Below are positions 2,248 through 59,891 of a stretch of DNA of 64,000 bases, in pieces. Under the pieces are notes generated by a model. That model worked only from the letters and a program-made list of their open reading frames with translations. It ran no database searches and was not told the DNA's origin. Every line of letters starts with the position of its first letter. Position 1 is the first letter of the stretch. The stretch is from Fistulifera solaris (Eukaryota > Bacillariophyta > Bacillariophyceae > Naviculales > Stauroneidaceae), in the NCBI GenBank assembly GCA_030295235.1, contig AP026138.1, forward strand, positions 496,001 through 560,000. The letters are read 5' to 3'. The position numbers and the translations under genes are program-made.

Positions 2248-3777
2248 TCATAATTTTGTCATGGGTTTTGTTGGGTCGAGTGTTCGCCTTAAAATTTCTT
2301 TCCTTTGCTTCCCTTGCCACTTTTTCTTTCCTTTGCTGGAAGTCTCTTCTTCGTCGTCATGACCGTGGTCGTCGTGGTCACCGTGGCCGACACCAAGCTC
2401 GCGCTTTCCCTTTCCGCTCTTGCTTCCTTTGCTTCCCTTTCCTTTGCTGGAGGCCTCTTCTACTTCCTCTTCGTCATCGTGTCCATGGTCGCGATCATGT
2501 CCGTGGCCAAGTCCGAGCTCGCGATCTCCCTTTCCACCCTTTCCGGATTTCTTGCCGGCCTTGCCTTTGCTGGAAACTTCCTCTTCGTCGTCATGTCCAT
2601 GGCCAACACCGAGTTCACGCTTTCCCTTTCCGGACTTCTTGCCGGCCTTGCCTTTGCTAGAGGCTTCTTCTTCTTCATCGTCATGTCCATGATCTCCATG
2701 TCCAACACCGAGTTCGCGCTTGCCCTTTCCGGACTTCTTTCCGGCCTTGCCCTTGCTGGAAGCCTCTTCCTCGTCATCGTGTCCGTGGTCTCCATGGCCA
2801 ACACCGAGTTCGCGTTTGCCCTTTCCGGACTTCTTGCCGGCCTTGCCTTTGCTCGAAGCTTCTTCCTCGTCGTCATGACCGTGATCATCATGGTCGCCAT
2901 GTCCAACACCGAGTTCGCGTTTGCCCTTTCCGGACTTCTTTCCGGCCTTGCCCTTGCTGGAAGCCTCTTCCTCGTCATCGTGTCCGTGGTCACCGTGGCC
3001 GACACCAAGCTCGCGCTTTCCCTTTCCGCTCTTGCTTCCTTTGCTTCCCTTTCCTTTGCTGGAGGCCTCTTCTACTTCCTCTTCGTCATCGTGTCCATGG
3101 TCGCGATCATGTCCGTGGCCAAGTCCGAGCTCGCGATCTCCCTTTCCACCCTTTCCGGATTTCTTGCCGGCCTTGCCTTTGCTGGAAACTTCCTCTTCGT
3201 CGTCATGTCCATGGCCAACACCGAGTTCACGCTTTCCCTTTCCGGACTTCTTGCCGGCCTTGCCTTTGCTAGAGGCTTCTTCCTCATCGTCATGTCCATG
3301 ATCTCCATGTCCAACACCGAGTTCGCGCTTGCCCTTTCCGGACTTCTTTCCGGCCTTGCCCTTGCTGGAAGCCTCTTCCTCGTCATCGTGTCCGTGGTCT
3401 CCATGGCCAACACCGAGTTCGCGTTTGCCCTTTCCGGACTTCTTGCCGGCCTTGCCTTTGCTCGAAGCTTCTTCCTCGTCATCGTGTCCGTGGTCTCCAT
3501 GGCCAACACCGAGTTCGCGTTTGCCTTTTCCAGACTTCTTGCCGCCCTTGCCCTTGCTGGAAGCCTCTTCCTCGTCGTCATGATGTCCATGATTACGATC
3601 ATGTCCGTGACCGAGACCCAAACGTCGGAGACCGCCAGCGTTGATAAGGACGTTTGCGTCAGCCGACTCAACTTGAGAAGCGGACAATTCGGACTTTCCA
3701 ATTGCACGGATAGATCCGCCAACAATCGCGCACATGACAAGGGCAGCGGATGCGGTTTTAGCAGCAGTGTACTTCAT
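2248..3777 (-). CDS. Secreted Lys/Ser- and His/Asp-rich repeat protein with RXL sites (silaffin-like)
   Basis: The 509-residue product starts with a signal peptide (MKYTAAKTASAALVMCAIVG...). Thirteen tandem units of about 27-40 residues follow. Each unit begins RELG (RRLG in the first), then has a His/Asp/Glu block (GHGDHGHDDEEE), then a Lys/Ser/Gly block (SSKGKAGKKSGKGK). Known facts: diatom silaffins and cingulins are ER-targeted, rich in Lys and Ser, alternate basic and acidic segments, and are cut at RXL sites. The RXL-like tripeptide at every unit junction therefore suggests a precursor processed into a family of zwitterionic peptides, perhaps bound to silica or metal through the His clusters. 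This is inference. The C-terminal ~20 residues leave the repeat pattern: an A5 run (2321-2325) shifts the frame, and one base fewer would end the protein in repeat-like GKGSKGKKF. An intron lies directly before the start codon. Confidence 0.8.
   Translation of the reverse strand: MKYTAAKTASAALVMCAIVGGSIRAIGKSELSASQVESADANVLINAGGLRRLGLGHGHDRNHGHHDDEEEASSKGKGGKKSGKGKRELGVGHGDHGHDDEEEASSKGKAGKKSGKGKRELGVGHGDHGHDDEEEASSKGKAGKKSGKGKRELGVGHGDHGHDDEEEASSKGKAGKKSGKGKRELGVGHGHDDEEEVSSKGKAGKKSGKGGKGDRELGLGHGHDRDHGHDDEEEVEEASSKGKGSKGSKSGKGKRELGVGHGDHGHDDEEEASSKGKAGKKSGKGKRELGVGHGDHDDHGHDDEEEASSKGKAGKKSGKGKRELGVGHGDHGHDDEEEASSKGKAGKKSGKGKRELGVGHGDHGHDDEEEEASSKGKAGKKSGKGKRELGVGHGHDDEEEVSSKGKAGKKSGKGGKGDRELGLGHGHDRDHGHDDEEEVEEASSKGKGSKGSKSGKGKRELGVGHGDHDDHGHDDEEETSSKGKKKWQGKQRKEILRRTLDPTKPMTKL
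2386..3607. repeat. Two copies of a ~610-bp higher-order repeat inside the silaffin-like gene
   Basis: The tandem units are themselves arranged in a larger duplication. The stretch around 2391-2940 recurs 612 bp to the right with almost the same bases, including the rare unit variants (the EEEVEEASS type and the GKGGKGD type) in the same order. A 3-bp length difference appears near 2670 versus 3282, where one copy encodes EEEE and the other EEE. This is a recent segmental duplication of about six units within the gene. Confidence 0.85.
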
Positions 3778-5867: not shown

Positions 5868-6548
5868 GATTCGTGAACGATAGAATTTTATTTTAACAAA
5901 AAGTAACAAGTGGAAACAGAGTAACCGCAACACTCTTCGGACTTGTCATTTTTGTGCGAAGAATGAAACTCTCGCGTGCATTTCGCACTTCGCACCGACT
6001 TTTTTCTCCACCGTGTAGCGCGGGAAAGCGCGTGCCGGCGCCGAATTCAAATTGCAGATAGCCAACGAAACGCGCGAAATGATTACTGTCAACTGGAATG
6101 TAGATTACCTTTTCATTCCCTGTCTCACGTGACTCCTCCTCGGGGTTGACACCCGCAGAAGGATGAATAGTTAGAAAGATGCCAACAACATTATAGTATC
6201 TTTTATCAACAATAAATAGACCCATCGTGCAGCATCGTACTAGTACAACCAAGTTAACGTTCATTACAAGCAGACCTGCATCATTTTTCGCAAAAATCCT
6301 GTCCTATCTCTATGAATTTGCAAGAACATCATTGGACTCCTTGTATGATAAAGGCCTCGGAATGCAAATAGTTCGTCCGCTTCACCCCTCAAATACGCTG
6401 AATCTGAATTTTATTATTGTAAATTGCATGACAAGGCACGACTTTAAATGAGAAACCTCGAATCCTTCAAGTTCATAGAAGATACACAAGAACGGCACAT
6501 CGCTGTAAAGTACTTTTGTAAACAAAACACAGAACGACTCGTGCGCCC
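5868..6548. other. Intergenic spacer
   Basis: Promoter side of the primase gene and 3' flank of the small two-exon gene. Several open frames up to 123 codons exist on both strands but show no domain or composition typical of a protein. Confidence 0.4.
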
Positions 6549-6947
6549 TTAGCGCTGGCCTTGTCTCATGAGATCCAAACGAAACATTCGCGACAGTGGA
6601 ATTCCCGTTTCCACGCAAAAGTTGACAATCTCCGAATAAGATTGAGCTCCACTTTGTTGAATCATCTGTCGACGGAAGTGTCAGAGGAAAAAGCATTCCG
6701 ATCGACAGCTCGTTCCAGTCGCACATACCTCTATCAAAACATCATCTTGTGAAAGCAGCGATGATTCCGATAATGGTGTCTCTACTTCCATGGCGTTATT
6801 TCTAGAGGCATCACGCCTTCGTTTGACAGCCGGATACTCGGCCATTTCGTCGTCCGAGACCGCCCGAGGAATGCCGATGCTCGACATCGGCGATACGTCC
6901 CTGCTCGCATTTTTGAACTGTCGGTTTATCATATCATTGCTGGACAT
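6549..6947 (-). CDS. Small two-exon protein of 111 residues, unknown function
   Basis: Exon 1 (6947-6729, 73 codons) starts MSSNDMINRQ and contains a basic KRRR patch that could be a nuclear signal. It ends at GAG|GTATGT. A 63-bp intron (6728-6666) ends in GTCGACAG. Exon 2 (6665-6549, 38 codons plus stop) reads SYSEIVNFCVETGIPLSRMF and ends LMRQGQR. Evidence that it is real: both splice sites are consensus, the phase is kept, and only the spliced frame ends neatly after a compact amphipathic segment. The first half looks disordered, with acidic and Ser-rich stretches. I do not recognise a family. A short nuclear regulatory peptide is possible, but this is a guess. Confidence 0.55.
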
Positions 6948-7613
6948 GCTATTATTGGTGCAAGAAGGTATATTGTAGCAGTTGAAGAAGAAGAGTGACA
7001 CGGATACGGCGGAATTTTTCGCAGAACTGCGCGGAAGATCGGAAAAACGCCGCCGATGCAAAAATTGGCGAAGTGACCGAAAACCGAACTCAAATTTCAG
7101 TACTGGGAGACACGGGAACGCACCTCTGCTTGGTACATTTTTCTACGGGGGCCTACGTGAGTGTACACTTTTTCCCGAACCTTCCTGTAGGTAACTACAC
7201 TCGCGGTGTGACGTACATGCCCGCGTTAAAGAAACGATGTCTTGCGTATTTACTATAGATCGAAGTGTTGTCCGTATTCGCCACGACTGGACTTCAGCCA
7301 TGAATCAAATTCTTTTGAGCGACAATGTTACCTCCAATTGGTTCGTTTAGCGAATTTACTTGAGCTCCATTTGTCGTTGTTACAATCCAACAGTCTTAGC
7401 ATCGTTTTGATTACACGACATTATACTTTACATCGAAGAGCTTTGCAAAACGTTGTCTTTTCTTAATTCACTATAGACCAAAGTGTGGATTCAAGGGAAC
7501 CGTGACTGCATTTCAGTCATGAGGCCGTTAGTCCGAGCCAGATTGTCAGCTCACCCACATTTTCCTTTTTCTACTGTCTTATAATACAAAAGGCTATAAC
7601 GTAGGTTTGAAAT
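6948..7613. other. Intergenic spacer with two copies of a short dyad repeat
   Basis: No convincing gene. A motif with a small inverted repeat (GACTG ... CAGTC) followed by ATGA occurs near 7281-7320 and, shortened, at 7499-7525. A similar copy lies at 35015-35056. Confidence 0.45.
7281..7320. repeat. Dispersed ~40-bp repeat, copy 1
   Basis: Begins CCACGACTGGACTTCAGCC, then ATGAATCAAATTCTTTTGAG. About four in five bases match 35015-35056 by eye. The centre can form a short hairpin. Its function is unknown. Confidence 0.5.
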
Positions 7614-37154: not shown

Positions 37155-37200
37155 TAGTTAGCTAAATAAAAATTAGGTCGATTTAGTCTATAGAGATAGT

Positions 37201-39113
37201 CTACGGTGTCCACAATTTCTGGAACGTGCAAAGCATTTTGGTAGGCTCGAAAAACTGGTCCAGAATTTCTGAATTTCTGTATGATCAGAAATAACGTATT
37301 CAGAATATCTGGAACATGCCCCTTCTTTCGTTATGATCAAAACCTGGTTTCCAAAATTTCTGGTAAGCGCACATTCTTTCGTCATGATCCAAAACACCCT
37401 GTCCACAATTTTTGGGACGTGCACAGCATTTTGGTAGGATCGAAAAATTGGTCCAGAATTTCTGGACCACCATAGAATTTCTGTATGAGCAGCAATAACT
37501 TGTCCAGAATATCTGGAACATGCCCCTTCTTTCGTTATGATCAAAACCTGGTTTCCAGAATTTCTGGTAAGCGCACATTCTTTCGTCATGATCCAAAACA
37601 CCCTGTCCATTAATTTTTGGGACGTGCACAGCACTTTGGTAGGATCGAAAAACTGGTCCAGAATTTCTGGACCACCACAGAATTTCTGTATGAGCAGCAA
37701 TAACTTATCCAGAATATCTGGAACATGCCCTTTCTTTCGTTATGATCAAAACCAGGTTTCCAAAATTTCTGGAACGCGCACATTCTTTCGTCATGATCCA
37801 AATCACCGTGTCCACAATTTTTGGGACGTGCACAGCACTTTGGTAGGATCGAAAAATTGGTCCAGAATTTCTGGACCACCACAGAATTTCTGTATGAGCA
37901 GCAATAACTTATCCAGAATCTCTGGAACATGCCCTTTCTTTCGTTATGATCAAAACCTGGTTTCCAGAATTTCTGGTAAGCGCACATTCTTTCGTCATGA
38001 TCCAAAACACCCTGTCCACAATTTTTGGGACGTGCACAGCACTTTGGTAGGATCGAAAAAACTGGTCCAGAATTTCTGGACCACCACAGAATTTCTGTAT
38101 GAGCAGCAATAACTTATCCAGAATCTCTGGAACATGCCCCTTCTTTCGTTATGATCAAAACCTGGTTTCCAAAATTTCTGGTAAGCGCACATTCTTTCGT
38201 CATGATCCAAAACACCCTGTCCACAATTTTTGGGACGTGCACAGCACTTTGGTAGGATCGAAAAACTGGTCCAGAATTTCTGGACCACCACAGAATTTCT
38301 GTATGAGCAGCAATAACTTGTCCAGAATATCTGGAACATGCCCCTTCTTTCGTTATGATCAAAACCTGGTTTCCAAAATTTCTGGTAAGCGCACATTCTT
38401 TCGTCATGATCCAAAACACCCTGTCCACAATTTTTGGGACGTGCACAGCACTTTGGTAGGATCGAAAAAACTGGTCCAGAATTTCTGGACCACCACAGAA
38501 TTTCTGTATGAGCAGCAATAACTTATCCAGAATCTCTGGAACATGCCCTTTCTTTCGTTATGATCAAAACCTGGTTTCCAAAATTTCTGGTAAGCGCACA
38601 TTCTTTCGTCATGATCCAAATCACCGTGTCCATTAATTTTTGGGACGTGCACAGCACTTTGGTAGGATCGAAAAACTGGTCCAGAATTTCTGGACCACCA
38701 CAGAATTTCTGTATGAGCAGCAATAACTTATCCAGAATATCTGGAACATGCCCTTTCTTTCGTTATGATCAAAACCTGGTTTCCAAAATTTCTGGAACGC
38801 GCTCTTTCTTTCGTCATGATCCAAAACACCATGTCCACAATTTTTGGGACGTGCACAGCACTTTGGTAGGATCGAAAAAACTGGTCCAGAATTTCTGGAC
38901 CACCACAGAATTTCTGTATGAGCAGCAATAACTTATCCAGAATATCTGGAACATGCCCTTTCTTTCGTTATGATCAAAACCTGGTTTCCAAAATTTCTGG
39001 AACGCGCTCTTTCTTTCGTCATGATCCAAAACACCGTGTCCATGATTTCTGGAACATTCCCAGAATTTCTGGACCACCACAGAATTTCTGTATGATCAGA
39101 ATTTCTGGAACCG
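37201..39113. repeat. Satellite array: 204-205 bp higher-order repeat built of four ~51-bp monomers
   Basis: Marker GTCC(A) of the same phase occurs at 37208, 37401, 37605, 37810, 38014, 38219, 38423, 38628, 38833 and 39038, so about nine units of 204-205 bp, the first shorter and the last truncated. Neighbouring units are nearly identical. Each unit splits into four diverged ~51-bp monomers with the shared pattern TTTCTTTCGT-ATGATC-AAAA ... TCCAGAATTTCTGGA. Each monomer ends in a dyad centred on CCAGAA-T-TTCTGG; the best, GGTCCAGAATTTCTGGACC, has 9-base perfect arms. Length differences are mainly A5 versus A6 and CACAA versus CATTAA. Frames are open on both strands over several units, a consequence of the dyads and of a length divisible by three. 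The array starts about 50 bp after the DDX49 stop. Confidence 0.95.
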
Positions 39114-39300
39114 GTAGACCTATTATACTGTAGGTTCAAGGTTTTTGTCAAAATCCGGACAGATTTTTCTCATGAGTCACGAATGACTATCTTTTTGAAT
39201 CAATTTTGGCTCATTATGTTGTTGGCCATCAGCCATCAGTTTGCTCACTTTGAGGGTAATAGAACACACGCTTCTCTCTACGCTACGTTTTATTTTCGTC

Positions 39301-43893: not shown

Positions 43894-44457
43894 ATGGATT
43901 CCCCAAGTTGGTTAGCAGAAGATACACAGGCCCCCTCAGCTTCCACGACAGGTGCGCCGGCACCTGCTGTCGCCGCTAGAGCCACGGCAACGACACTCGC
44001 AGCCACAGATGCATCGTCTACCGAAGACAAGAACGCAGCACTTCGTGCGAAAGTGATGAAGCGATTTGTCAACATGCTGGTTGCTTCCGTGTGCGCTGCC
44101 CGGTCGATTTTGCTGATCCTCACCATTCCGGATGGAATTTCTGAGTTCGTCATTGCTGTATATTCGGCCGTCCTTTGCGCATTCGTCTTTTTGTCGGAAA
44201 TGACAGAGCTAGCGTTCATGAAATGGATTTTGATGAATCATGGTTACCTTTACAGTCCCACTTGGCGCTTTATGTTTTACCTTTTACTGGCATCGATGCA
44301 GTGGTCGTTGGGTGGAATTTGGAGTTACGCGAACGGGGGTGCTCTCGTGTTTGTCGCATTCTGCAACGCTTATTGGCTGCTTAAGTATCCCAGTCTTCGA
44401 TCGAACAAAGGTTCGGCACGTCCCAAGCCGGCTGCCGCTGCCGATCCGGCTCTATAA
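43894..44457 (+). CDS. Four-helix membrane protein, possibly COPI-associated family
   Basis: 187 residues. The first ~55 are disordered and Ala/Thr-rich, so there is no signal peptide. Four hydrophobic segments follow: about 58-80 (FVNMLVASVCAARSILLILT), 84-106 (EFVIAVYSAVLCAFVFLSEM), 122-142 (TWRFMFYLLLASMQWSLGG) and 147-168 (GALVFVAFCNAYWLL). The tail is cytosolic and Ala/Pro/Lys-rich. Size, helix spacing and the R-G-...-F-Y-L-L-L-A-S-x-x-W pattern before the third helix recall COPI-associated and Tvp18-like Golgi proteins, but the match is by impression only. Intact, single exon. Confidence 0.6.
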   Translation: MDSPSWLAEDTQAPSASTTGAPAPAVAARATATTLAATDASSTEDKNAALRAKVMKRFVNMLVASVCAARSILLILTIPDGISEFVIAVYSAVLCAFVFLSEMTELAFMKWILMNHGYLYSPTWRFMFYLLLASMQWSLGGIWSYANGGALVFVAFCNAYWLLKYPSLRSNKGSARPKPAAAADPAL

Positions 44458-45116
44458 CCTCTCGCGTTGCTTGATTTCTTGGAGTCCTATAAAATCAAAT
44501 TAGGAATCGAATTACAAAAGTTGTTAGTTGTTTGAGTAAAGTCATCTTACTTTAGAATGGTCTGTTCATACGCCTATGTAATCAGTTACTGGAGGAGACA
44601 ACGAGTACTGGAAATAATCTTGTTCATTGCGCATACCGTATACGCGATCACGATGACGTGTTAATTTTACTAAAAATAAAAACAATCTAATTAACATATC
44701 ATCTACGCCAACAATAGAGGATCACATCAACGAAGCCTACAGACTGCTCGAGTTATTAATTGGTGGATGTATTCCTGATCCTTCTGGCAACCCTTTTTCT
44801 CTTGGTCAAATAAGAGAAAAACGGAGGAATAATGGTTACGGGACTGAAATCCGGTTAAGTCGTTGAGTATGTCGCCTACATATTATTGTATAGTAAAAGT
44901 AGTCATGAATGACGAATGACCTTACCGCGGTCTGTCATCCAACGGACGAGCGTCACTGGGCGAAAAAAGTCGCGCGTGGTAAAAAAGCAGACCGTTGACA
45001 AAAAGCAACAAGCCGCAAAAAAGGAGGTGCTTCGGTTGTATCATTGACGATAGATCCCTACTACGTACAACAGCGATCAATTATTTCAATAGTAGCCTTC
45101 ACATTATCGTCTCATT
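44458..45116. other. Spacer upstream of the Sec16 gene
   Basis: AT-rich; promoter of the Sec16 homologue. It contains a GTCATGAATGACGAATGACC stretch at 44902-44921, reminiscent of the dyad repeat but too short to assign. Confidence 0.4.
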
Positions 45117-48100
45117 ATGCAAGGCGATCGATATCCTGCAACACCCATGGCTTTGAAGCCACCGCAGTCTCCCGTGAGCGTCGACTCCTCGAGAGCCTCG
45201 GGGCCCACCGCTGGCTTCCATACGGCAAAACCTCGCTCGGCGAACCGTTTTAAGCTACCGCCGGGAAGAGGTGTGCCCACTACGAGTCGAAACACACCCT
45301 CTCCGTTGCCGGTTTCGCATGCTCCGAGTTCAATGAAACCACGATTCGCGACCCCTCAAACCTCGCACGTGATTTCGCGCAGCCGGAGCAATTCCATTAC
45401 CAGCACTTCTTCTTCGATAGGTGGCGGTTGGTCGAAGCAAATTGATTCAGCTTCCGGCAAAGTCTATTATTTTCATGCCGAAAAGGGTATTACTCAATGG
45501 GACGCACCGGTCGACGTTTCTCAACCGTTGCCAGCTGTCGTTGCCGTCGATTCTTTGGTGGAATCACATGGAACGCTGGTAGTACAACAACAGGAACCCG
45601 AAACGAGTTCGAACACTGTTGTTGAGATGCAAGGATGGCAACAGCTCACGGATCAGGCGTCTGGAAAGCCTTACTATTACAATGCTGCGACAGGCGAATC
45701 GCGATGGGAGAAGCCTGTACAACTCGACACATTAGAGAATGACAGGCAGCACATGGGTGAGCAGACATCAGGTATCATCGATCCGCCTACCACTTCTGTA
45801 GAAGTCAGTGAGCGAAGCGACATTGCTGAGTATCAACAGGATTTCGAAGTTCCTTCCGAAGGGATTCTACCAACGGAAGTAGAATGCGCGCAGCAAATCG
45901 CCATTCCTGAGGAGTCACATGGAACAGTCGTAGAGCAAAGTCAATCATTGGTACAATCTAATTCGGGCAGCGCTGATGAGATGCAAGGATGGCAACAGCT
46001 CACGGATGAAGCTTCTGGGCTGCCTTATTATTACAATGCCGTGACAGGCGAATCGCAATGGGAGAAGCCTTTGCAACTTGACATACCCGACAACGATACG
46101 ACATACCCCAATGAGCCAATTTCTGATGCCATGGATCAGCCTACCGCTGCTGCAGAAGTCAGTGAGCGAAGCGACGCTGCTGAGCTTTTGTCAACTGACA
46201 TGGAAGTAGAAACCTCACCGCAACTGATTACTTCCGAGTCACAGGGAACGATCGTCGAACAAAATGATACTTTGCCACAAAAAAGTTCGGACAGTGTCGA
46301 TGAGAAGCAAGGATGGCAACAGCTTACGGATAAAGCTTCTGGTAAGCTGTATTATTACAATGCCGCGACAGGCGAGTCGCAATGGGAGAAGCCTTTGCAA
46401 CTCGATAATTTGGAGAGTGAACAGCAACACGCCAATGAACCAACTTCTGATGTCTTGGACCAGCCTCAAACTGCTGTAGAGTTCGGTGAACGAAGCGAAA
46501 CCCCCGAGAATCAATATGACGTTCCGAATGATCTGAATAATAGTCCCGAGGACGCGCATCCAATGGCAATGCCTTCAACTGTGACGTTGGAGGATGAAGA
46601 TTTGGTAGCTAGGGGCACAAACGAGTTTACCGATGATCTTCCCAAAGGATGGCGAACTGCCACAGATCCTTCCGCGGGAACATATTATCTCAATGGAATG
46701 ACTGGAGAGACAAGCTGGGAATTTCCAAAGGCCGCGGAAAGTTCACGAGGCGAAGAACTTACTGACACACCGACGAATCCGGTTCTACCTGAGGGGTGGA
46801 CACAAATTGTGGATCCTACTTCCGGTAGTTGCTATTTTTACAACGAAGAGACAGGTGAAACTTCATGGGATTTTCCAGCGTCAGGGATCAGTAATGGTAT
46901 TATTTCACAAGAGAAAGATTCAATTGAAAATGACGTAATACATTTTGAAAACGATGATGTGAATTCTGTTCTTTCTGGCAGTCAAAAACCCCATACGCAA
47001 GACGACGATGGATTAGTCATAGAAGAGAAAGATGATACAGGCAGAGTTATTCCTCCTGGTTGGGCTAAAGTAGAGGACGAGACGACTTTGGAAACCTATT
47101 TCTACAACGAAATAACCGGCGAGACCGCGTGGACGTTACCTTCTGAAAATGTTCCTGTCAACGACGAGCTTCAAGCTGCTTTAGATTCCATCACAAACGA
47201 GACTTTAGATGAAGCTAGCGGACCGCTAGCTGATGGTTGGAGTAGAAAGATTGACCAATCGTCCGGCCAGGTATACTATTGTAATGATATTACTGGCGAA
47301 AGTTCTTGGAATGCGCCTCCTGTAGCTGCGATGACACTGGAAGGCGAAACCTGCGCCATGGATAATGACGAGCCTTCTACAGACGACCGAGTGGACACTG
47401 ATGCACACGACGTCCGCCTTTCCTCGGAGCATCAGAACATACAGGAAACCTCGGACACTATGAACGTTCAGGCATCGTCTACAGAAAAGGAAATAGCGGG
47501 TATCGCTACTTCCGTCATTGAGAGCACGCAACTGCCAATCCGGTATTGACGACCGACCACGAAACCCACAATTTTCATGATCCGTCATCTGATATTGATT
47601 GCTGGGAAAAGTTAAAAGATGAGTCGACGGGTAACCATTATTATTTAAACACAGCCACAGGGGAAGCTACATGGGATCCCCCCTGAGAGGATGAGCAAGA
47701 ACATGAGCGAAGGTGAAAGCGCTGGCAACTCTGAAAATGTCGAGATTGAACCTACACAAAAACCAGGAATAGACAATAGCCCCTCTTTGATGGAAAATGA
47801 AAGTTTTCCATTTGCACCACCTCTCACGCTTCAATCTTCGGAAATAACAACAAGCGCTCATCCTCTGCCAGCGGGCTGGGAGATGTTGATTGATCCGGGG
47901 TCTGGAGACTCCTATTACTATAATGAGGAACGAGGAGAAACATCATGGGAACTACCAATCGCTACGCGGGAAGAACTTACTTTTCCTGCAAATGAGACTT
48001 TGTTGAATTCGGGTAGTTTTGCCAAACCAGACTCAACTGAGCCAGAATGCAGTTTGTCGCTTGCTGCTGGTTGGGTATCAGTAGAGGATCCTTCATCGGG

Positions 48101-51100
48101 TGATGTTTACTTCTACAACAAGCAAACTGGAGAGACTTCGTGGGAACCACCAAGCGGGACAGAGAGGCCAGTGGTTACAGCGACCGGCGATGAAGCCTCT
48201 CAAACATCGTTTGATAAAAGGAGCCGTCTCACGTTCATGATTCATCTGGAGAGTTGCGTCTTAGTGGAGAAATGGAAGACCTCCCACACGGTCGTCGGAG
48301 CGATAGCCAAGTGCTTAACGAGCCTGAAATCGGTAGAGTTTATGATGGTGATGCTACTTATTCCACAGTTTCGGCTTCTTCGACGAAGAAAGAAACGTCC
48401 ACATCGCACCACATCGACTCGAGGCAGACAAATTCAATCTCAAGTGACAGACAGAAAGAAAAAGATGAAAGCAACGTCAAAAAGTATTACTCGAGGAAGA
48501 ACTCCAGCGTAATGCGAATGGCGTAGAATTTTCAACTCTGAATGAAGCCAGTAGCGAAGGTGTGGTGAACGACAGAAATCTATCTGTGGTTACTAAGACT
48601 GTTACATCCTCCAATACAGAGGTTGAGTTGAACAAAACTAGCCAATCACAAGTCATTTTGCCGCCATTACATGGTTGGGAACAAATTGTAGATGAGTCTT
48701 CTGGTAATGCTTATTTTTTAAACAAAAACACGGGCGAAACATCTTGGGAACTCCCCGTTGTGCTGACTTCGACAGATGGTTCAGTACAGCCGGGTCGTGA
48801 TCTTCGAAATCCATCTACAAGTGGCGATAGTCTACCTTCAGGATGGGAGAAGCTATTCGATACGACGTCTGGAAGACCTTATTATTACAATAGCGTGCAA
48901 AATACAACGTCCTGGGATCCTCCTTCCGACTCGAGTGATGACTGGATAAAGGTTGCTCATCCTACACCGTCCGAATCATCAGCTGAATCATTGAAGTCGG
49001 CCCGAGATAGTCATCTAGTGGGAAGACGCGGACCAGTCGCTTGTTTTGGATTTGGCGGCCGTGTGTGCGTCTCGAACAGTCCACCAGGCACGATCGCGGT
49101 TCATAGTGTGTCATCGTTATTGACATCGCACGTTATCATGGTTACTGAACGTACGAAGCGAGAAGCTGGTTTTTCAGGTCCCTTGATTGCGACAGAGAAT
49201 CAGAATGTAATGGCTTATTTCGAAAGAAAAGCTCAGAAACAGTCCGATTTGATATGGAACCTTTGTCTAATTGCCTCGCACTCTAGGGGGGTGCCTCCGT
49301 AGCGACGACAGGGTAAATGAATTGAACAGACCGGAGCCTGCTATAGTCGATCTTCTTTTAACTAATACGAACGAGAACGAAACCTCGGAGGCTGAAGTAC
49401 TTGTGGAAAAACAAATGGTCACAAATTTCAATGGTTTGGAAGAAATTCAGTTTCTTCTTTTGCAAGGGAAAAGAGAGGAAGCAATAGAATGCGCTTTGGC
49501 AAATGAACAATTTGCGCTTGCTTTTCTCGTGGCCAGCATGTGCAGTAGAGCGACATATTTTGAAGTTGCGAAAAGTTACACGGAGAGCGTTCTCTGCAAA
49601 GGCTCCCCCTTGCATACTGCTGCTGAGTTATTTTGTTCAGAGCTTCAGATCCCCGAATTGAGGATGGGCGTAAACCCGGCAATATGGAGTGATAACAATA
49701 TCAACTTGAAACATACATGGAAGAAACATCTCGCAGCAATTATCAGCAATCGAACTGCTGGATGGGATGATTTAGCTATAGCTCTCGGTGACCGTCTCAA
49801 AGAACTCGGTGAAGTCGTACCTGCCCATGTCTGTTACATGGTGTGCGGATGTTCTTTTTCACCCCCTGCCCGTAAGAATGCGAAATTCAGTCTATTGGGG
49901 TGCGAAGTCGACGTCGCTGAGTTGCTTCTCTTGACGAATGACTCTGTGGAGTCATTTTGCCGAGCTGAAGCGTATGAGTGGGCGAAACGACGTGGCAATA
50001 GAAATGCAGCTATTCAATGCATTCAAGGGTTCAAACTTCAATACGCACTCCTTTTAAGTGACCTAGGGCTTGTTGAAGAAGCCAAGATGTACATCGCGAG
50101 CATAAAGGAATGTCTTGATTTCAACGAAGCAATGGACTTGAAACGAGAAAGTTTGCACCCTTTAACAGTTTCCATTATGACAGCTGACCGCCCGGGAATT
50201 TTGCATCAAGTTCTTGAACTTGAATCTCGATACGCTGGAACGTCTGTTTATAATCTGAAAATCAGAGAGGGTTTTTACAGAGACAGTTTGTCGGTTACTC
50301 ACGATGCATCCCCCGAACCCGCAACAAGAAATTTGACAGTTGATGGACGCAAAAAGTAAATGATGAAACGAAGAAGCGTTTGTCGTCGCCGGCTATGCTT
50401 CGGAAGAATCTGCACGAGGAAGACGGAAGTCTCGATAAGGTTTCAACAAGTAAGGAAACTTTATCCAAGGTGCAACCTCCGCTACCATCTATAACCAACG
50501 CTACAACAAAGAAGACGTCAGACAAGTCGGCTAATGTCACCAAGAACGAAAAGTTTATACCTCCTACGCTCGCCACACCCGAACGAACGACTATTGATGA
50601 TAAGCCACATCTGTCAGATCACGCGGAGACTAGCAAGAGAAAGATTTCAAAGCCAGAACAGGCACCTCGATCAGCGCCACCCAACTTGCAGTCACCTAGT
50701 TTTGGTAAGCAGCTGTCCGTTCTCTCATTCGCTTAGTATTGTCTTTTAGGATATCGCGACTAACAATTCGTTTTCGGAAAGGTTTTATGAACAAAATAAA
50801 GGATCGCATCATAAAGTGGCAAAATCCCGACGCTCATATTGCTAATCCAGGAGAAGAAATGCAAGCTTATTATGACAAAGAAAGAAAAGTATGGGTCTTC
50901 CCGGGCGAAGATCCTGACGAAGTGGCGAAGCCTATAGGACCACCACCTTCAATGTCCACGCCGTCAGCAAATCAAGCTCCTCCGCCGCCAAGTAATGATC
51001 CACTTGCGGCGATGATGGCCCCACCGCAGCGTGCTCCGTCTGCTTTACGTGGACGGCCTCCTTTAACGCCGTCTCCTGCATCTCTACCACCATACACACC

Positions 51101-51203
51101 ACTCGCGGCTAGCGCCACATCGAATCAATCACCGCCGCAATTCATGGTTTTTAAACCCGTTACGAAACCTGTCATCGAAAACCAAGAAGACGAAAGCACG
51201 TAG
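45117..51203 (+). CDS. SEC16: Sec16 homologue with an N-terminal array of about 13 WW domains
   Basis: Sec16 organises COPII exit sites on the ER. About 2,000 residues. From 45420 to 48930 the protein carries about 13 WW domains of the form GW ... D..SG..YYYN..TGE..W..P, e.g. YYYNAATGESQWEKP, separated by acidic linkers; three consecutive ones (45620-46400) are near-identical. Next is the central conserved domain (GPVACFGFGGRVCV), then the Sec16 ACE1 alpha-solenoid at 49430-50140 (LLLQGKREEAIECALANEQF, HTWKKHLAAIISNRT). After a 77-bp intron (50705-50781, TTG|GTAAGC ... GGAAAG) comes the C-terminal conserved box (GEEMQAYYDKERKVWVFPGE) and a Pro-rich tail. Frame faults: about 47537, C6 47681-47686, A4 48216-48219, A5 48479-48483, G6 49286-49291 and A5 50351-50355; similarity continues across each. 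Fusing WW repeats to Sec16 is unusual. Confidence 0.88.
45420..48930 (+). repeat. WW-domain tandem repeats within the Sec16 gene
   Basis: About 13 copies of a 30-33 residue WW domain, 100-500 bp apart. Copies two to four share nearly the same DNA (GGATGGCAACAGCTCACGGA and the downstream GGCGAATCGCAATGGGAGAA), so they arose by recent duplication; the others are older and diverged. The two signature Trp residues and the Tyr pair are present in almost all; the ninth lies across a frame fault at 47681. Confidence 0.85.
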
Positions 51204-53006
51204 CCGCCCCGTAGTTAATGCAGAGCATTCGCATCGTTAGAGTAGCTTTTGCCGCTGCCTTTGGATTTAGCTGTTGCCTAAAATCAGACAGGCTAAGCGA
51301 GGCGACAATCGACAATGAACGAGTGTCCTTTCAAATGATGAGGCAGCCTTTTGGAATGGTCTGTAGTGCTTTGTCACGTGTATCGTGTATTCTTGTTCTT
51401 GTCTTCCTTCACCTTCACGTCAGCTTGTATCAACTACTGTATCAGCAAAGAGGAGTACTAAATACCAAGACGTGAATAAAATAACTCGCTCTTACTTCTC
51501 CCTTCTAAATCTAAGCCTGAAAAAAGCGTACAGCGTACGTCGAAAGTGAAGGGAACACGGAACAACAATGATGTCAAAGAAATTGTACCATAGGATGATA
51601 AGAATCTTATTGCTAATCGCAGGAATAGAGCGACCGGTGGCAAGGTGGAGACTTGGCATTTGGCAAATTTACATTGTGGGAATAAGAAATAGAAGGTCGA
51701 CAGAGTAGCCCGTCATACTGCGTCCGCTCCAATAATGTTCTTGGCCTTGGGACTTCTTACTTTTTACAACAGAGCACGCGAGATGGAACACAGACTTTTA
51801 TTGGTCTGGCGTCGTAACGTCTTGATCACGAGCTTACGAGCCCTCTAACCTAACGCCTAACGCATGGCAGTCGGCAGTCAAGAGTCAAGAGTCCGGAACA
51901 TCTATCTTTGATGTGTGATGTTTTCATTTTTCATAATGATTCAGAGAATCATCCTACATACAGAGTCTGCACTAAGATCCGGAGAGCTGGAGAGCAGAAA
52001 GTAGAGAAGTGCTAAGAAGCTATAATGTGCATGGTGCATGCTTTTCTACGATCTACGATCCCTTGACGACTCTTAAGTTCGTCGGCTTATCCTTCTAAAA
52101 TTTAGCCGCAAAACCGCAAACCAAACTGCTGTTGCATGTTGCGTTGATGCGATGCGATGATTTCATCGCGGTGGTCTATCCTTCGTACGGTTGGGACGTG
52201 GCACGTCTCATATTCAATACAGTACGACACAACTTCGTACTGTATGTCTATACAATCATGATGATCGCCCCTCGGGATTCGGGATCCTTGCTCGGGATAT
52301 AGCGATGTCAAACACGCATCTGGTAAAAGGACGTATTAGCTGTTATGGACGTACTTTTTACTATCATCATCACTTTGCCAGGTTTTCGGAGATTCTATTG
52401 TTCTTTAAGATGTACTGGGAAGTGGTTCTTTTGTTCGTCATCAGTATTCCTAATCAACAATAGTGAGTTATGACTCAATAAAGTTTTAATGACTGGAATT
52501 TAGTCCATAATGTTTCACGAATACATAGTCCGCATTCTCGTCGCTTGTGTCGCGTGTGATTTTTCAAGTAGCTAAATCATCCTAAAGATAACCAGTAAAT
52601 ACAGTAGTACAGTCGTGACTACCTGAAAAAGTACATTAATACTTATAGTAAAGTTTTAAAAATTGCCCATTTGACTTTTGGTCAACGGCGATTTTTCTTG
52701 CCCTCATGCTCTTCCTACTTCTTTGAAAGGATTAGAGAGTACAGTTCGCGCGTCAGAATGTACTCGGAAAATTCTTAAAGTTACTCCGGCGGTCACTCTC
52801 CCCCCTTCCCCTGCTTCCGCTTCCCTCCCATTCAAAAAAAAGTCCGTCGATAAAGTCAAAAATTGTTGTTACTCCGTAATTGCAACACCAGCAAAGCTCT
52901 CGACACTCTTACTTTATCGAGCTTTACCTCTTTGCACAACTTCCACGCTGTCTTGTTCACAACTTTAGCCAAAGCTATAAGGATTGAAACGACTTTGCGA
53001 TTGAAT
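51204..53006. other. 1.8-kb gene-poor region
   Basis: No convincing gene. The stretch 51835-52060 is made of stuttered short duplications (CTAACCTAACGCCTAACGC, GCAGTCGGCAGTCAAGAGTCAAGAGTC). The right end holds the promoter and leader of the HMG-box gene, with a C/T-rich patch near 52790-52830. Confidence 0.45.
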
Positions 53007-57289: not shown

Positions 57290-58787
57290 ATGTCAGCAAC
57301 TCCAGATTCCTTTCAAGTCGAGCCGGCGAAGTTTGATGAGGGCAACACTTCTCCCTCGTCGGGCATCATTACTGACGAAGAAGCACCCGAACAGCGAGGT
57401 TCGATGACAATGCAGCTTCACAAGAGAACTTGAAAAATGGACATCACACATTTGCCACTTTGTTCAAGTACTCATATTCGCTGGTGCTATTACTCTTCTC
57501 GATCGTCGCCGTTACCGCCACTATTTTCACAGATCAGACGAAAATGGCAGCAGACGTCAACGCAGCCGTTGCTTTCATTCTTCTTTGGGTTCTTACGCTT
57601 TGGCTGGCCGTCATGGAAGGAGGACAAGGCTGTCTCGTTGGGTTGCAGCCTGTGGACAAGACGCTCACGAAAGTCGCACCTGAAAGCGTTGAAGGTGACG
57701 AAATTGGCTCACGAAGGAAACAACTTGGAACGCTTTATCGTCGGTAGGCAGTTCCTTGTTGTGCTTGTCATCTTGTCATCAACATGTGTGGATCGGCATT
57801 GAAAGGCTCCAGCGTTCTTAACATGCCCGACTTTATGGTGGAGATTTTCATCAACTCGGGCGTCGCCTTGATTTTGATGACGACCATTCTTGGACAATTG
57901 ACCGCACAAGTGAACGCCGCCGACTGCATGCTCGACTTCATTAACAACTACATTATGTTGATCACAACGCACGTTTTCTCTTTTCATCGAAATGTCCGGT
58001 TTGCTCCATTCGGTCTACCTTGTTCAGATAATTTTTGCCAAGATCACCGGCAAGTCCTCAGATTCCCAGCCAGAACGCACCATCTCGCAAGCTATCTTCT
58101 TCTGGCTACGAATTATGTTCTCAGTGGCCGTCTTGTCCTTCTCCTTGGCAGTCACCTTAGTTGCGCTCTTCGACGGCAAGACTACAATGTACAGCGGTGT
58201 CCCAGAGCCTGTGTCAGTAACCCTTCTATTCGCTTTGATGGCGTTTTGTTGGTATGATGGAAGGTATGCAAATCGCTCTCTTCGCCGTCATCAACCTGCC
58301 CAAGGACGAGCTACAGAAACATCCTCAAGCAGCCAAGGTATGCGAGTTGGTCTTTTCTAGATCACATTTACAAGCTTTCTTGATCGGTCGTCAGATCTGT
58401 GTCACGTGTTGCATGTTCATCCTTGCCCGGCGTCGCCACCTGCAGCGTCGAGGGCGAGTTGACGATTTTCGGTGTCAGTGCGGGCATTCAAAATTTCTTC
58501 AATACGGGTCTTCTGGGTGCTATCATCACAACCATCATTGGATCTTTAGCTTGGCGCATCATTGCCTCGGCTTTCCCGGTGGCCTTTTGTCCAACCCGCT
58601 CATCTATTTGATCATTCGTCTGTGCTTGTTTCTCGAGGCGTCGGGTGTTTGCTCGGCGGCATGGGTCGTCGCACGGGTGCACCGCAAGGTGGCTCGTTTT
58701 GAACCGGATGTCGAGTATCTTGGTACCCCGGAATCGAGAGAATCGAGCAAACAAATCGCCGACGATCTTGAGTTGCAGGAAAACTAG
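57290..58787 (+). CDS. SIT: Silicon transporter (SIT), ten-helix silicic acid carrier
   Basis: Takes up silicic acid with sodium across the plasma membrane. SIT signatures are present in both halves: EGGQGC and IVGRQFLVV in the first, EGMQIALF and LIGRQICV in the second, and the conserved CMLDFINNY between. It starts MSATPDSFQVEPAKFDEG, a cytosolic N-terminus, and ends with a charged tail (QIADDLELQEN). About 500 residues with about ten hydrophobic helices. The frame is broken near 57400, 57680-57690, 57773, 57979-57990, 58243-58246, 58426-58430 and 58582-58585, in both directions, yet all motifs are intact and no in-frame stop appears once joined. I judge it a real gene with sequence errors; recent loss cannot be excluded. 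The mariner element ends 410 bp upstream. Confidence 0.88.
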
Positions 58788-59891
58788 AATGCTACGTAGC
58801 TGAATGTCAATAGTGACGAATGGTCAACTCGATCGAAATAAATGTAACATTGATGATTCAAGGCACTAATAATATCAAAACAATCATAAAAAATAGGTGT
58901 TCTAGTTTGTTGTTTGGTTTAGATTTTACGGTACGTTGGTTGACGCACGCGTCGGTCATGTTCGTGCAAATAATTCAGCGTCCAGTCTAAGATGGATGAT
59001 GCGATCGATCCATTTCATCTAAATTTTCATCTTTTGACAGAGTTGTCTTACAGACGATTTTTGCGCACGATTTTTTAGAAAACAAAGTGCGATTGTGAAT
59101 CTAGGGATAGTACTGTATTGCATTCAAATCTAGAAGAAGCGCCGATCCTCGTACCTAGTCGAGTACCGGTGCGCATGATGGAACATGCGCACGCCGTCGA
59201 ATAACCTACGTCACTCATGGGCTTACGTCAAGCCGATACAATTGAGAGCACAGTGTCACACCATCTGGTACTGAATGTCTATCTAAATGATCACTGAAAA
59301 TTTTCTTGGAACTTCGATCTCCACACTTCCTTTCTGTGCGATAGTCATTGGACACGAACAGCATCGATACACGAAAGTACGTTAGCTATTTTAGAGTACT
59401 CTTGACTGGAATTTGGCTACTCGTATCTCGTATCCTTCGGATTTGGGTGGCCGGCTCGCTCCATTTTCCGATGCATTGTTTCTGCCATTTGAGCGCGTGT
59501 CCAACCTCCTCCTCTATCAAATCCTCCGACCTTGGTGGGAGATTCTTTTTCAAGCGTCCACTCCGATGAATGAATAATTCATCCCACATGACGGGAAGTA
59601 TTGGTGGAGAGAAGCCAAAAGCAAAACGTCTACAAGAGAGAGCATTAGTTACTCCGTATTTTTTTTTTATTATTTGAAAGCAAACGGACGTCTTTACACA
59701 TTACGTCTCTCAAGTGCTGCTCATTATTACTCATTGCAGTAACAAGAAGAGCACCGTCGCCTTTCAACGCAAGCTAAAAAGCATCCTACACAAACAATCA
59801 CCAATCCATACGGCATTGGCACCTCCAAAGGCTTTCGATTGAAAAAGAAGACAACACACATTCGATTATTACCCGCGCCGCACATCGTAGT
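58788..59891. other. 1.1-kb intergenic region
   Basis: 3' flank of the silicon transporter and promoter of the first MORN gene. Open frames up to 75 codons look random. No repeat or RNA gene recognised. Confidence 0.4.

Follow-up and report, generated by a model that had tools for sequence, protein, structure and literature searches.

A Sec16 gene with an N-terminal array of WW domains

The DNA analysed here is a window of 64,000 nucleotides from Fistulifera solaris (contig AP026138.1, hereafter C23, positions 496001-560000), within a genome of 51.7 Mb in 61 contigs. Positions 45117-51203 of the window encode a Sec16-like protein of about 1,990 amino acids when six breaks in the reading frame are read through. 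Translation in three frames and hmmscan give the domain order as a basic N-terminus, 13 WW domains, a mid-region, an ACE1 domain and a proline-rich tail (coordinates are collected in Table 1). A homoeologous gene lies on contig C24 (locus L009), and each of its 13 WW domains has an aligned counterpart in the window. A single Sec16 was found per subgenome, with no others in the genome. The genome is probably allodiploid: its contigs are paired, and the aligned blocks of C23 and C24 are 71-92% identical; for the species as a whole, 42 homoeologous pairs with an overall homology of 75% have been described (PMC5935921). A first-pass annotation, made from the DNA letters, had taken the organism for a diatom, and this agrees with the 23 silicon-transporter matches in the genome (pieces, not genes). 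The control search with the same family matched one bacterium, below the cut-off.

A six-frame profile search returned 13 WW matches over the Pfam cut-off on C23 (plus strand, window 45423-48924) and 13 on C24, which makes exact the earlier estimate of about 13. The array had been placed over the first 1,250 residues; its N-terminal position holds, and its extent is corrected to roughly residues 1-1,295 with the N-terminus included. The genome has at least 79 WW matches, and of those listed the two Sec16 copies together supply 26; the next-biggest same-strand cluster among the matches listed has three. Taken by pieces, hmmscan reports eight WW domains for the first open frame, which scores 279.8 bits overall, two for the second and two for the third. 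WW9 lies in a short frame flanked by two breaks, outside the pieces scanned. The first piece also gave matches above their own cut-offs to Glyco_hyd_101C (51.1 bits), PQQ_2 (32.5 bits) and WW_USP8 (26.7 bits), which we take to be cross-matches of the WW repeats.

Tandem Repeats Finder detected no tandem array in 44000-52500, and the region is therefore an array of domains and not a recent DNA satellite. Three of the domains, WW2-WW4, are close copies, mutually 84-87% identical. The array as a whole is strongly acidic, with 222 Asp and Glu residues against 66 Lys and Arg in 1197 amino acids. A structure predicted for WW12-WW13 and the mid-region has a mean predicted local distance difference test (pLDDT) score of 39.5, with better confidence in the WW parts only, and the modelled WW12-WW13 matches WW tandems of YAP1, ITCH, KIBRA and PRPF40A in the PDB.

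Sec16 identity

The Sec16 assignment of the first-pass annotation is borne out by the ACE1 domain, which scores far above its cut-off in the window and reaches 113.8 bits in the homoeolog. The mid-region is recognised less well: PF12932 gives a weak match, below its cut-off, where expected, ahead of ACE1; the six-frame genome search with this family was without a match, and hmmscan reports none in the homoeolog. Towards the end of the protein lies a C-terminal box, which we presume to be the counterpart of that in other Sec16 proteins, followed by the proline-rich tail, also predicted earlier, whose PPP, PPPP and LPPY motifs are kept in both homoeologs. A PPLP in the linker after ACE1 is found in the window copy only and is not kept in the homoeolog. 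No WD40 family was detected in the five Sec16 pieces of the window that were scanned, the one propeller family there being PQQ_2, with its probable cross-match to the WW repeats. Sec31 is encoded separately, elsewhere in the genome, and the Sec16 protein is thus distinct from it.

By sequence, the closest PDB entry is yeast SEC16 (3mzk_B), at an E-value of only 0.16, and a profile built from the Sec16 pair found no PDB match up to E 0.1. The predicted ACE1 fold (pLDDT 44.9) is too poor for a fold search. Scans of the viral_contigs and genome_contigs collections with ACE1, the C-terminal exon or Sec31 returned no relatives, a result that is uninformative as these collections are viral and prokaryotic. 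A comparative study of COPII found Sec16 to be strongly conserved in its central domain only (PMC4419792).

Gene model and frame breaks

The start codon of the window copy is preceded by an in-frame stop at 45093. On C24, 50 open codons without a further Met stand ahead of the first ATG (L009:1295). The homoeolog has an open reading frame (ORF) of 794 amino acids (L009:4590-6971) that runs through WW12, WW13, the mid-region and ACE1 with no stop between them. In this frame WW13 ends at residue 181 and the mid-region core stands at residue 221; the first Met afterwards is residue 344, and ACE1 is at residue 355. In the window copy the first in-frame ATG after WW13 is at 49138, within the mid-region (core at 49045). 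In both copies, therefore, the stretch from WW13 to the mid-region core has no in-frame Met, so that a separate Sec16 gene would have to begin inside its mid-region or beyond it, unless an unseen exon supplies the start. A split into two genes at 48930-49020 is unlikely because the 794-residue frame is open and its first Met comes only just before ACE1, and on the open frame and the absent start codon the two-gene model was rejected. The homoeolog's frame and its Met positions favour the single gene across 45117-51203 that had been proposed. WW domains upstream of Sec16 had been expected in a related genome as well; the second subgenome was the one checked, and all 13 are present there.

The reading frame of the window copy shifts near 47520, 47680, 48216, 48477, 49288 and 50356, and that of the C24 copy at three sites, all of them different. 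At each of the nine breaks (9/9) the partner copy reads open. Counted directly, this amounts to about 1.0 break per kb in the window and about 0.5 per kb on C24. Other ORFs of at least 250 amino acids, from the rest of the window and its C24 counterpart minus Sec16 and the repeat region, change frame 11 times over 8,356 aligned residues (window) and 5 times over 6,942 (C24), or 0.44 and 0.24 per kb, counts biased low by starting from long ORFs. The same ORF-based count gives Sec16 one frame change per 1,639 residues, or 0.20 per kb; direct and ORF-based counts disagree, and the comparison is therefore rough. Breaks of a similar kind occur in both Sec24 copies and in the window's silicon-transporter gene, and Sec31 is unbroken in both copies over the 987-989 codons of its long exon. 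Most of the Sec16 breaks look like assembly indels. That Sec16 is a pseudogene is unlikely, given the constraint on its sequence and the frame breaks in other genes.

Constraint between the homoeologs

Between the two Sec16 copies the WW domains are more constrained than their linkers. Identity is 88.5% in the domains against 65.6% in the linkers; when the domain mask was rotated, 2 of the 1194 placements gave a gap as large. The ratio of nonsynonymous to synonymous substitution rates (dN/dS, by the method of Nei and Gojobori in a script of our own) is 0.37 for the WW domains (95% interval 0.242-0.550) and 0.71 for the linkers (0.548-0.913), intervals that just touch. Values for single WW domains scatter widely, and those of WW6 and WW10 exceed 1 on few changes; WW8 (73% identity) and WW12 (70%) are the least conserved. 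Of the 20 indels in the array alignment, 18 lie within linkers. Seven of the 20 coincide with frame breaks, where codons are omitted in reading, and 12 of the remaining 13 are in linkers.

Elsewhere in the protein dN/dS is 0.05 in the C-terminal box, 0.066 in the basic N-terminus, 0.155 in the proline-rich tail, 0.22 in ACE1, 0.248 in the mid-region and 0.43 in the linker after ACE1. The N-terminus, at 97.1% identity, is second in conservation only to the C-terminal box.

Predicted ligand class of the WW domains

WW domains are recognised by two Trp residues about 20-23 residues apart, a Tyr-aromatic pair in strand 2 and a Pro after the second Trp. All 26 Sec16 domains keep the ligand-contacting Tyr28 and the second Trp39, as counted with a pattern that requires the second Trp and whose number equals that of the profile search. 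Group-I domains, which bind PPxY, have a His after the Asn in strand 2; domains of groups II and III, which bind polyproline, have an aromatic residue at position 30. The group-I His is absent throughout (0/26 in Sec16 and 0/2 in the WW domains of Sec31), and position 30 is aromatic in 19 of the 26 Sec16 domains (9/13 and 10/13 per copy). Because the group-I His is absent and the aromatic residue mostly present, polyproline ligands are predicted, and we infer from the sequence that the Sec16 domains are Prp40/FBP11-like and would bind polyproline rather than PPxY. Polyproline is described as the ligand of group II/III domains (PMC1557994). A search of the PDB with the WW profile returned mixed matches (68 sequences at E <=1e-5, the best 60 inspected), among them Itchy, NEDD4L, Prp40, Pin1 and PRPF40A.

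COPII partners

Besides Sec16, the genome was found to hold PF12931 in one further protein, Sec31, with one copy per subgenome (best PDB match yeast SEC31, 2.5e-31). It carries a WW domain of its own, located in the linker between ACE1 and what looks by eye like a C-terminal helical region. In both homoeologs this linker has no PPP, PPLP or [LP]PxY, contains 9.5-9.9% proline and is rich in Gln (25 of 191 and 25 of 189 residues); the WN pair of the yeast active fragment is not present. The yeast Sec31 linker is rich in proline and contacts the Sec23 gelsolin domain through PPP motifs, and in yeast the proline-rich region of Las17 can substitute for that of Sec31 (PMC7594496). The first-pass annotation had proposed a proline-rich Sec31 as ligand of the array, which the PPP-free, WW-bearing linker of this genome contradicts.

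In a comparison of 18 domains, taken by our own pattern from 12 of 20 loci, the Sec31 WW is nearest to WW6, WW5 and WW10 of Sec16 (scores 112, 109 and 108), with an acidic membrane-type protein close at 106; with the domain recovered at just 12 of the 20 loci, no origin is claimed for it. Also in the genome, at L008 1021-2472 (minus strand, C27, with a partner on C29), lies a highly acidic protein that has a single WW domain and an apparent C-terminal membrane segment; its WW is closest, among those compared, to WW10 of Sec16 (68%).

Sec24 was identified by its best PDB match, Sec24A (9e-149), and has the trunk, sandwich, helical, zinc and gelsolin domains. Its N-terminus is proline-rich in the pieces measured (29% of 72 residues on C18, 32% of 91 on C17). 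Beyond the usual end of the protein lies a C-terminal extension of 221 amino acids, 90 of them Pro (41%), with 14 polyproline runs and repeated GMQPPP-like units, as read across one frame break (C18). The last exon alone has no Pfam or PDB match. Joined to the preceding exon through an inferred intron, it matches known Sec24 ends until about 'DFVHNP' (Sec24D at 4e-19; best 9ya0, at 1.7e-26), and beyond this point the proline-rich tail continues in frame for about 52 residues on C17 and about 65 on C18 until the first break. The two copies are 90% identical over the 640-base stretch that bears the tail. For Sec23, the main exon matches Sec23A (3.9e-160) and the gelsolin domain lies in the next exon.

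Table 1. Features of the Sec16 gene (window positions) and of its putative COPII partners (locus positions)
Feature	Position	Strand	Remarks
Basic N-terminus, about 101 residues	45117-45419	+	Start ATG 45117; Lys+Arg 13, Asp+Glu 2
WW1	45423-45509	+	Pfam profile match (C23:541423-541509)
WW2	45633-45716	+	Pfam profile match; close copy of WW3, WW4
WW3	45987-46070	+	Pfam profile match; close copy of WW2, WW4
WW4	46308-46394	+	Pfam profile match; close copy of WW2, WW3
WW5	46638-46727	+	Pfam profile match
WW6	46785-46877	+	Pfam profile match
WW7	47052-47141	+	Pfam profile match
WW8	47226-47318	+	Pfam profile match
WW9	47603-47683	+	Pfam profile match; between two frame breaks of the window copy
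WW10	47865-47957	+	Pfam profile match
WW11	48060-48152	+	Pfam profile match
WW12	48670-48756	+	Pfam profile match
WW13	48832-48924	+	Pfam profile match; best-modelled region of the fold, blocks at pLDDT 72, 84, 67
Sec16 mid-region (CCD), divergent	49021-49432, borders approximate	+	PF12932, 19.4 bits (cut-off 23)
Sec23-binding / ACE1 domain	about 49445-50119	+	PF12931 (TPR_Sec16), 118.2 bits (cut-off 22)
Intron, inferred	50705-50781	+	GT..AG; matching site in homoeolog; from frames and sequence; C-terminal exon next
C-terminal box, ending ..MQAYYDKERKVWVFPGEDPDEVA	50782-50927	+	97.9% identity to homoeolog
Proline-rich tail with PPP, PPPP, LPPY	50928-51200	+	94.5% identity to homoeolog; stop codon 51201-51203
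Sec31 WW domain	L015:4945-5037 (and L016); contigs C1, C2		51.6 bits in one homoeolog, 50.7 in the other
Sec24 C-terminal extension	L028 about 1-600; L029 about 6500-7250; contigs C17, C18	minus (L028)	Beyond the usual end

Proposed mechanism and alternatives

COPII, the coat of vesicles that leave the endoplasmic reticulum (ER), is essential and ancient, and in yeast it assembles through several weak contacts that include the binding of disordered proline-rich regions to Sec23. Condensate behaviour has been described in the literature for Sec16 and exit-site proteins, and the first-pass annotation had raised the possibility that the array gives multivalent, condensate-like assembly of exit sites. 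It also drew attention to the plastid, which in diatoms the ER surrounds as well. We propose that the Sec16 of this diatom would serve as the scaffold of ER exit sites, its N-terminal two thirds presenting 13 WW domains on acidic linkers. The array may bind the polyproline tails of Sec23/Sec24 multivalently, as their receptor, and so gather the inner coat at exit sites; Sec31, through its one WW domain, would dock the outer coat onto the same tails. The proline-rich tail of Sec16 itself may compete for the WW domains or serve the gelsolin pocket of Sec23. We infer that Sec24 is the main proline-rich partner and that the tail of Sec16 is secondary. That Sec24 polyproline is the common ligand of the Sec16 array and the Sec31 WW, and so joins scaffold, outer coat and inner coat, is to our minds an evenly balanced proposition.

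The polarity of the yeast coat, where the proline motifs sit on outer coat and scaffold and their reader on the inner coat, would then be reversed. More tentatively, and with our own doubts, the COPII wiring may have been turned round in this diatom lineage, Sec24 carrying the polyproline ligands and Sec31 and Sec16 the WW readers, with a 13-valent array in place of a disordered proline-based assembly region. An exchange of such coat elements is plausible because the Las17 region replaces that of Sec31 in yeast (PMC7594496). If true, it would show that an essential coat has, in nature, changed the code by which its multivalent interactions work, and it would mean that multivalency is indispensable to coat assembly and its chemistry replaceable. 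The array would also offer 13 countable, mutable folded modules for probing valency at ER exit sites.

Several observations weigh against this proposal. The assignment of the WW domains to a group depends on two residues and on general rules; both Sec31 WW domains have Ala at position 30; and Itchy, NEDD4L and Pin1 stand beside Prp40 among the PDB matches. The dN/dS intervals of domains and linkers meet at their edges, both Sec16 copies are broken in frame in the assembly, and the mid-region match stays under its cut-off. Sec24 N-termini are rich in proline elsewhere too, and the Sec24 of 9ya0 itself ends in a short, slightly Pro/Ala-rich stretch. Since Sec23 has its gelsolin domain, the usual PPP reader may still work. 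The yeast PPP contact is non-essential, one of three modes, and Sec16 generally bears PPP motifs (PMC7594496), as the tail does here.

The array might instead act mainly in cis or between Sec16 copies, binding the protein's own tail in autoinhibition or head-to-tail self-association. The tail is conserved together with its motifs, and the authors of a study of PRPF40A propose its cis WW-proline interaction for most tandem-WW proteins (PMC11079029). However, 13 readers match poorly with some three tail motifs, the sole LPxY-type motif would suit group-I domains, whose His the array lacks, and the PPLP after ACE1 is missing in the homoeolog; the excerpts of PMC7594496 describe PPP motifs of Sec16 in general and do not mention WW arrays. 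We consider this reading unlikely. Somewhat improbable, too, is a Sec16 that works as a hub, its array recruiting non-coat proteins such as tethers, cytoskeletal, RNA-processing or plastid-membrane factors. Single WW domains are promiscuous (PMC11079029), and the yeast GYF protein Smy2 ties proline reading to COPII genetics, although the GYF domain is not its Sec23/Sec24-binding part (PMC2239301). No such client was identified, no systematic search for one having been made, and the matching features of Sec31 and Sec24 point at the coat itself.

A proline-rich Sec31 as the ligand would fit the yeast protein, whose linker is proline-rich with PPP (PMC7594496), but the single Sec31 found in each subgenome has neither PPP nor the other motifs sought, is modest in proline and bears a WW of its own, and this option is scarcely credible. 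It is also very improbable that two adjacent genes, or decayed copies, have been read as one. Such an artefact would account for the six and three frame breaks, more per kb by direct count than in the other ORFs, and for their absence from the long exon of Sec31. Against it stand the identical domain order on two contigs, the open partner at every break, the frame that crosses the proposed boundary, the stretch from WW13 to the mid-region core without an in-frame Met in either copy, the low ORF-based count, the dN/dS of ACE1, and the broken frames of the Sec24 copies and the silicon-transporter gene.

Neighbouring features

The silicon-transporter gene (window 57448-58844) lies in several frames with stops, and its counterpart (C24:548954-550270) has one stop. 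A satellite at 37271-39042 consists of 8.7 copies of 205-bp units that are 96% alike; it is missing from C24, where the step from window 37185 to 39128 spans about 9 bases. A further tandem repeat, at 2537-3582, has 96/192-bp units (10.6 copies by the shorter) and long open frames on both strands.

Comparison with known systems

Among the matches listed, the open-access literature holds no WW-bearing Sec16, one of these matches dealing with ubiquitin-mediated degradation at the Golgi; by title, none of the papers found has diatom Sec16 as its subject, and among the matches listed a WW within Sec31 is undescribed by title or abstract opening. The 13-WW Sec16 architecture is new relative to the literature found, and database entries may exist unremarked. 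With yeast Sec16p, animal Sec16A/B and plant MAG5 the diatom protein shares ACE1, a weak mid-region and a proline-rich C-terminus after the C-terminal box. It differs from them in its N-terminus, which consists of 13 WW domains where theirs is WW-free disordered sequence.

Among tandem-WW proteins, we take the YYYN-type domain without the group-I His to be common to Prp40/PRPF40A, FBP21, TCERG1 and the Sec16 array. The polyproline ligands predicted for the array would be a further likeness. In PRPF40A the WW domains recognise PPLP/PPPP as well as a proline-rich segment of the same protein, in cis (PMC11079029), a possible parallel to the tail of Sec16. Yeast Prp40 (PMC1557994) and PRPF40A (PMC11079029) have two WW domains each and act in splicing, whereas here 13 are found on a coat scaffold. 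Smy2, a yeast GYF factor of COPII, likewise belongs to the COPII pathway and has a domain that reads proline. It differs in being a protein of its own, and its single GYF domain is not the part that binds Sec23/24 (PMC2239301). A functional parallel may be the PPP interface of Sec31 and Sec23 in yeast and human (PMC7594496), which resembles the proposed system in its multivalent weak proline recognition across scaffold, outer coat and inner coat. In F. solaris, by contrast, the proline runs are on Sec24 and the WW domains on Sec31 and Sec16, and the Sec31 linker is free of PPP.

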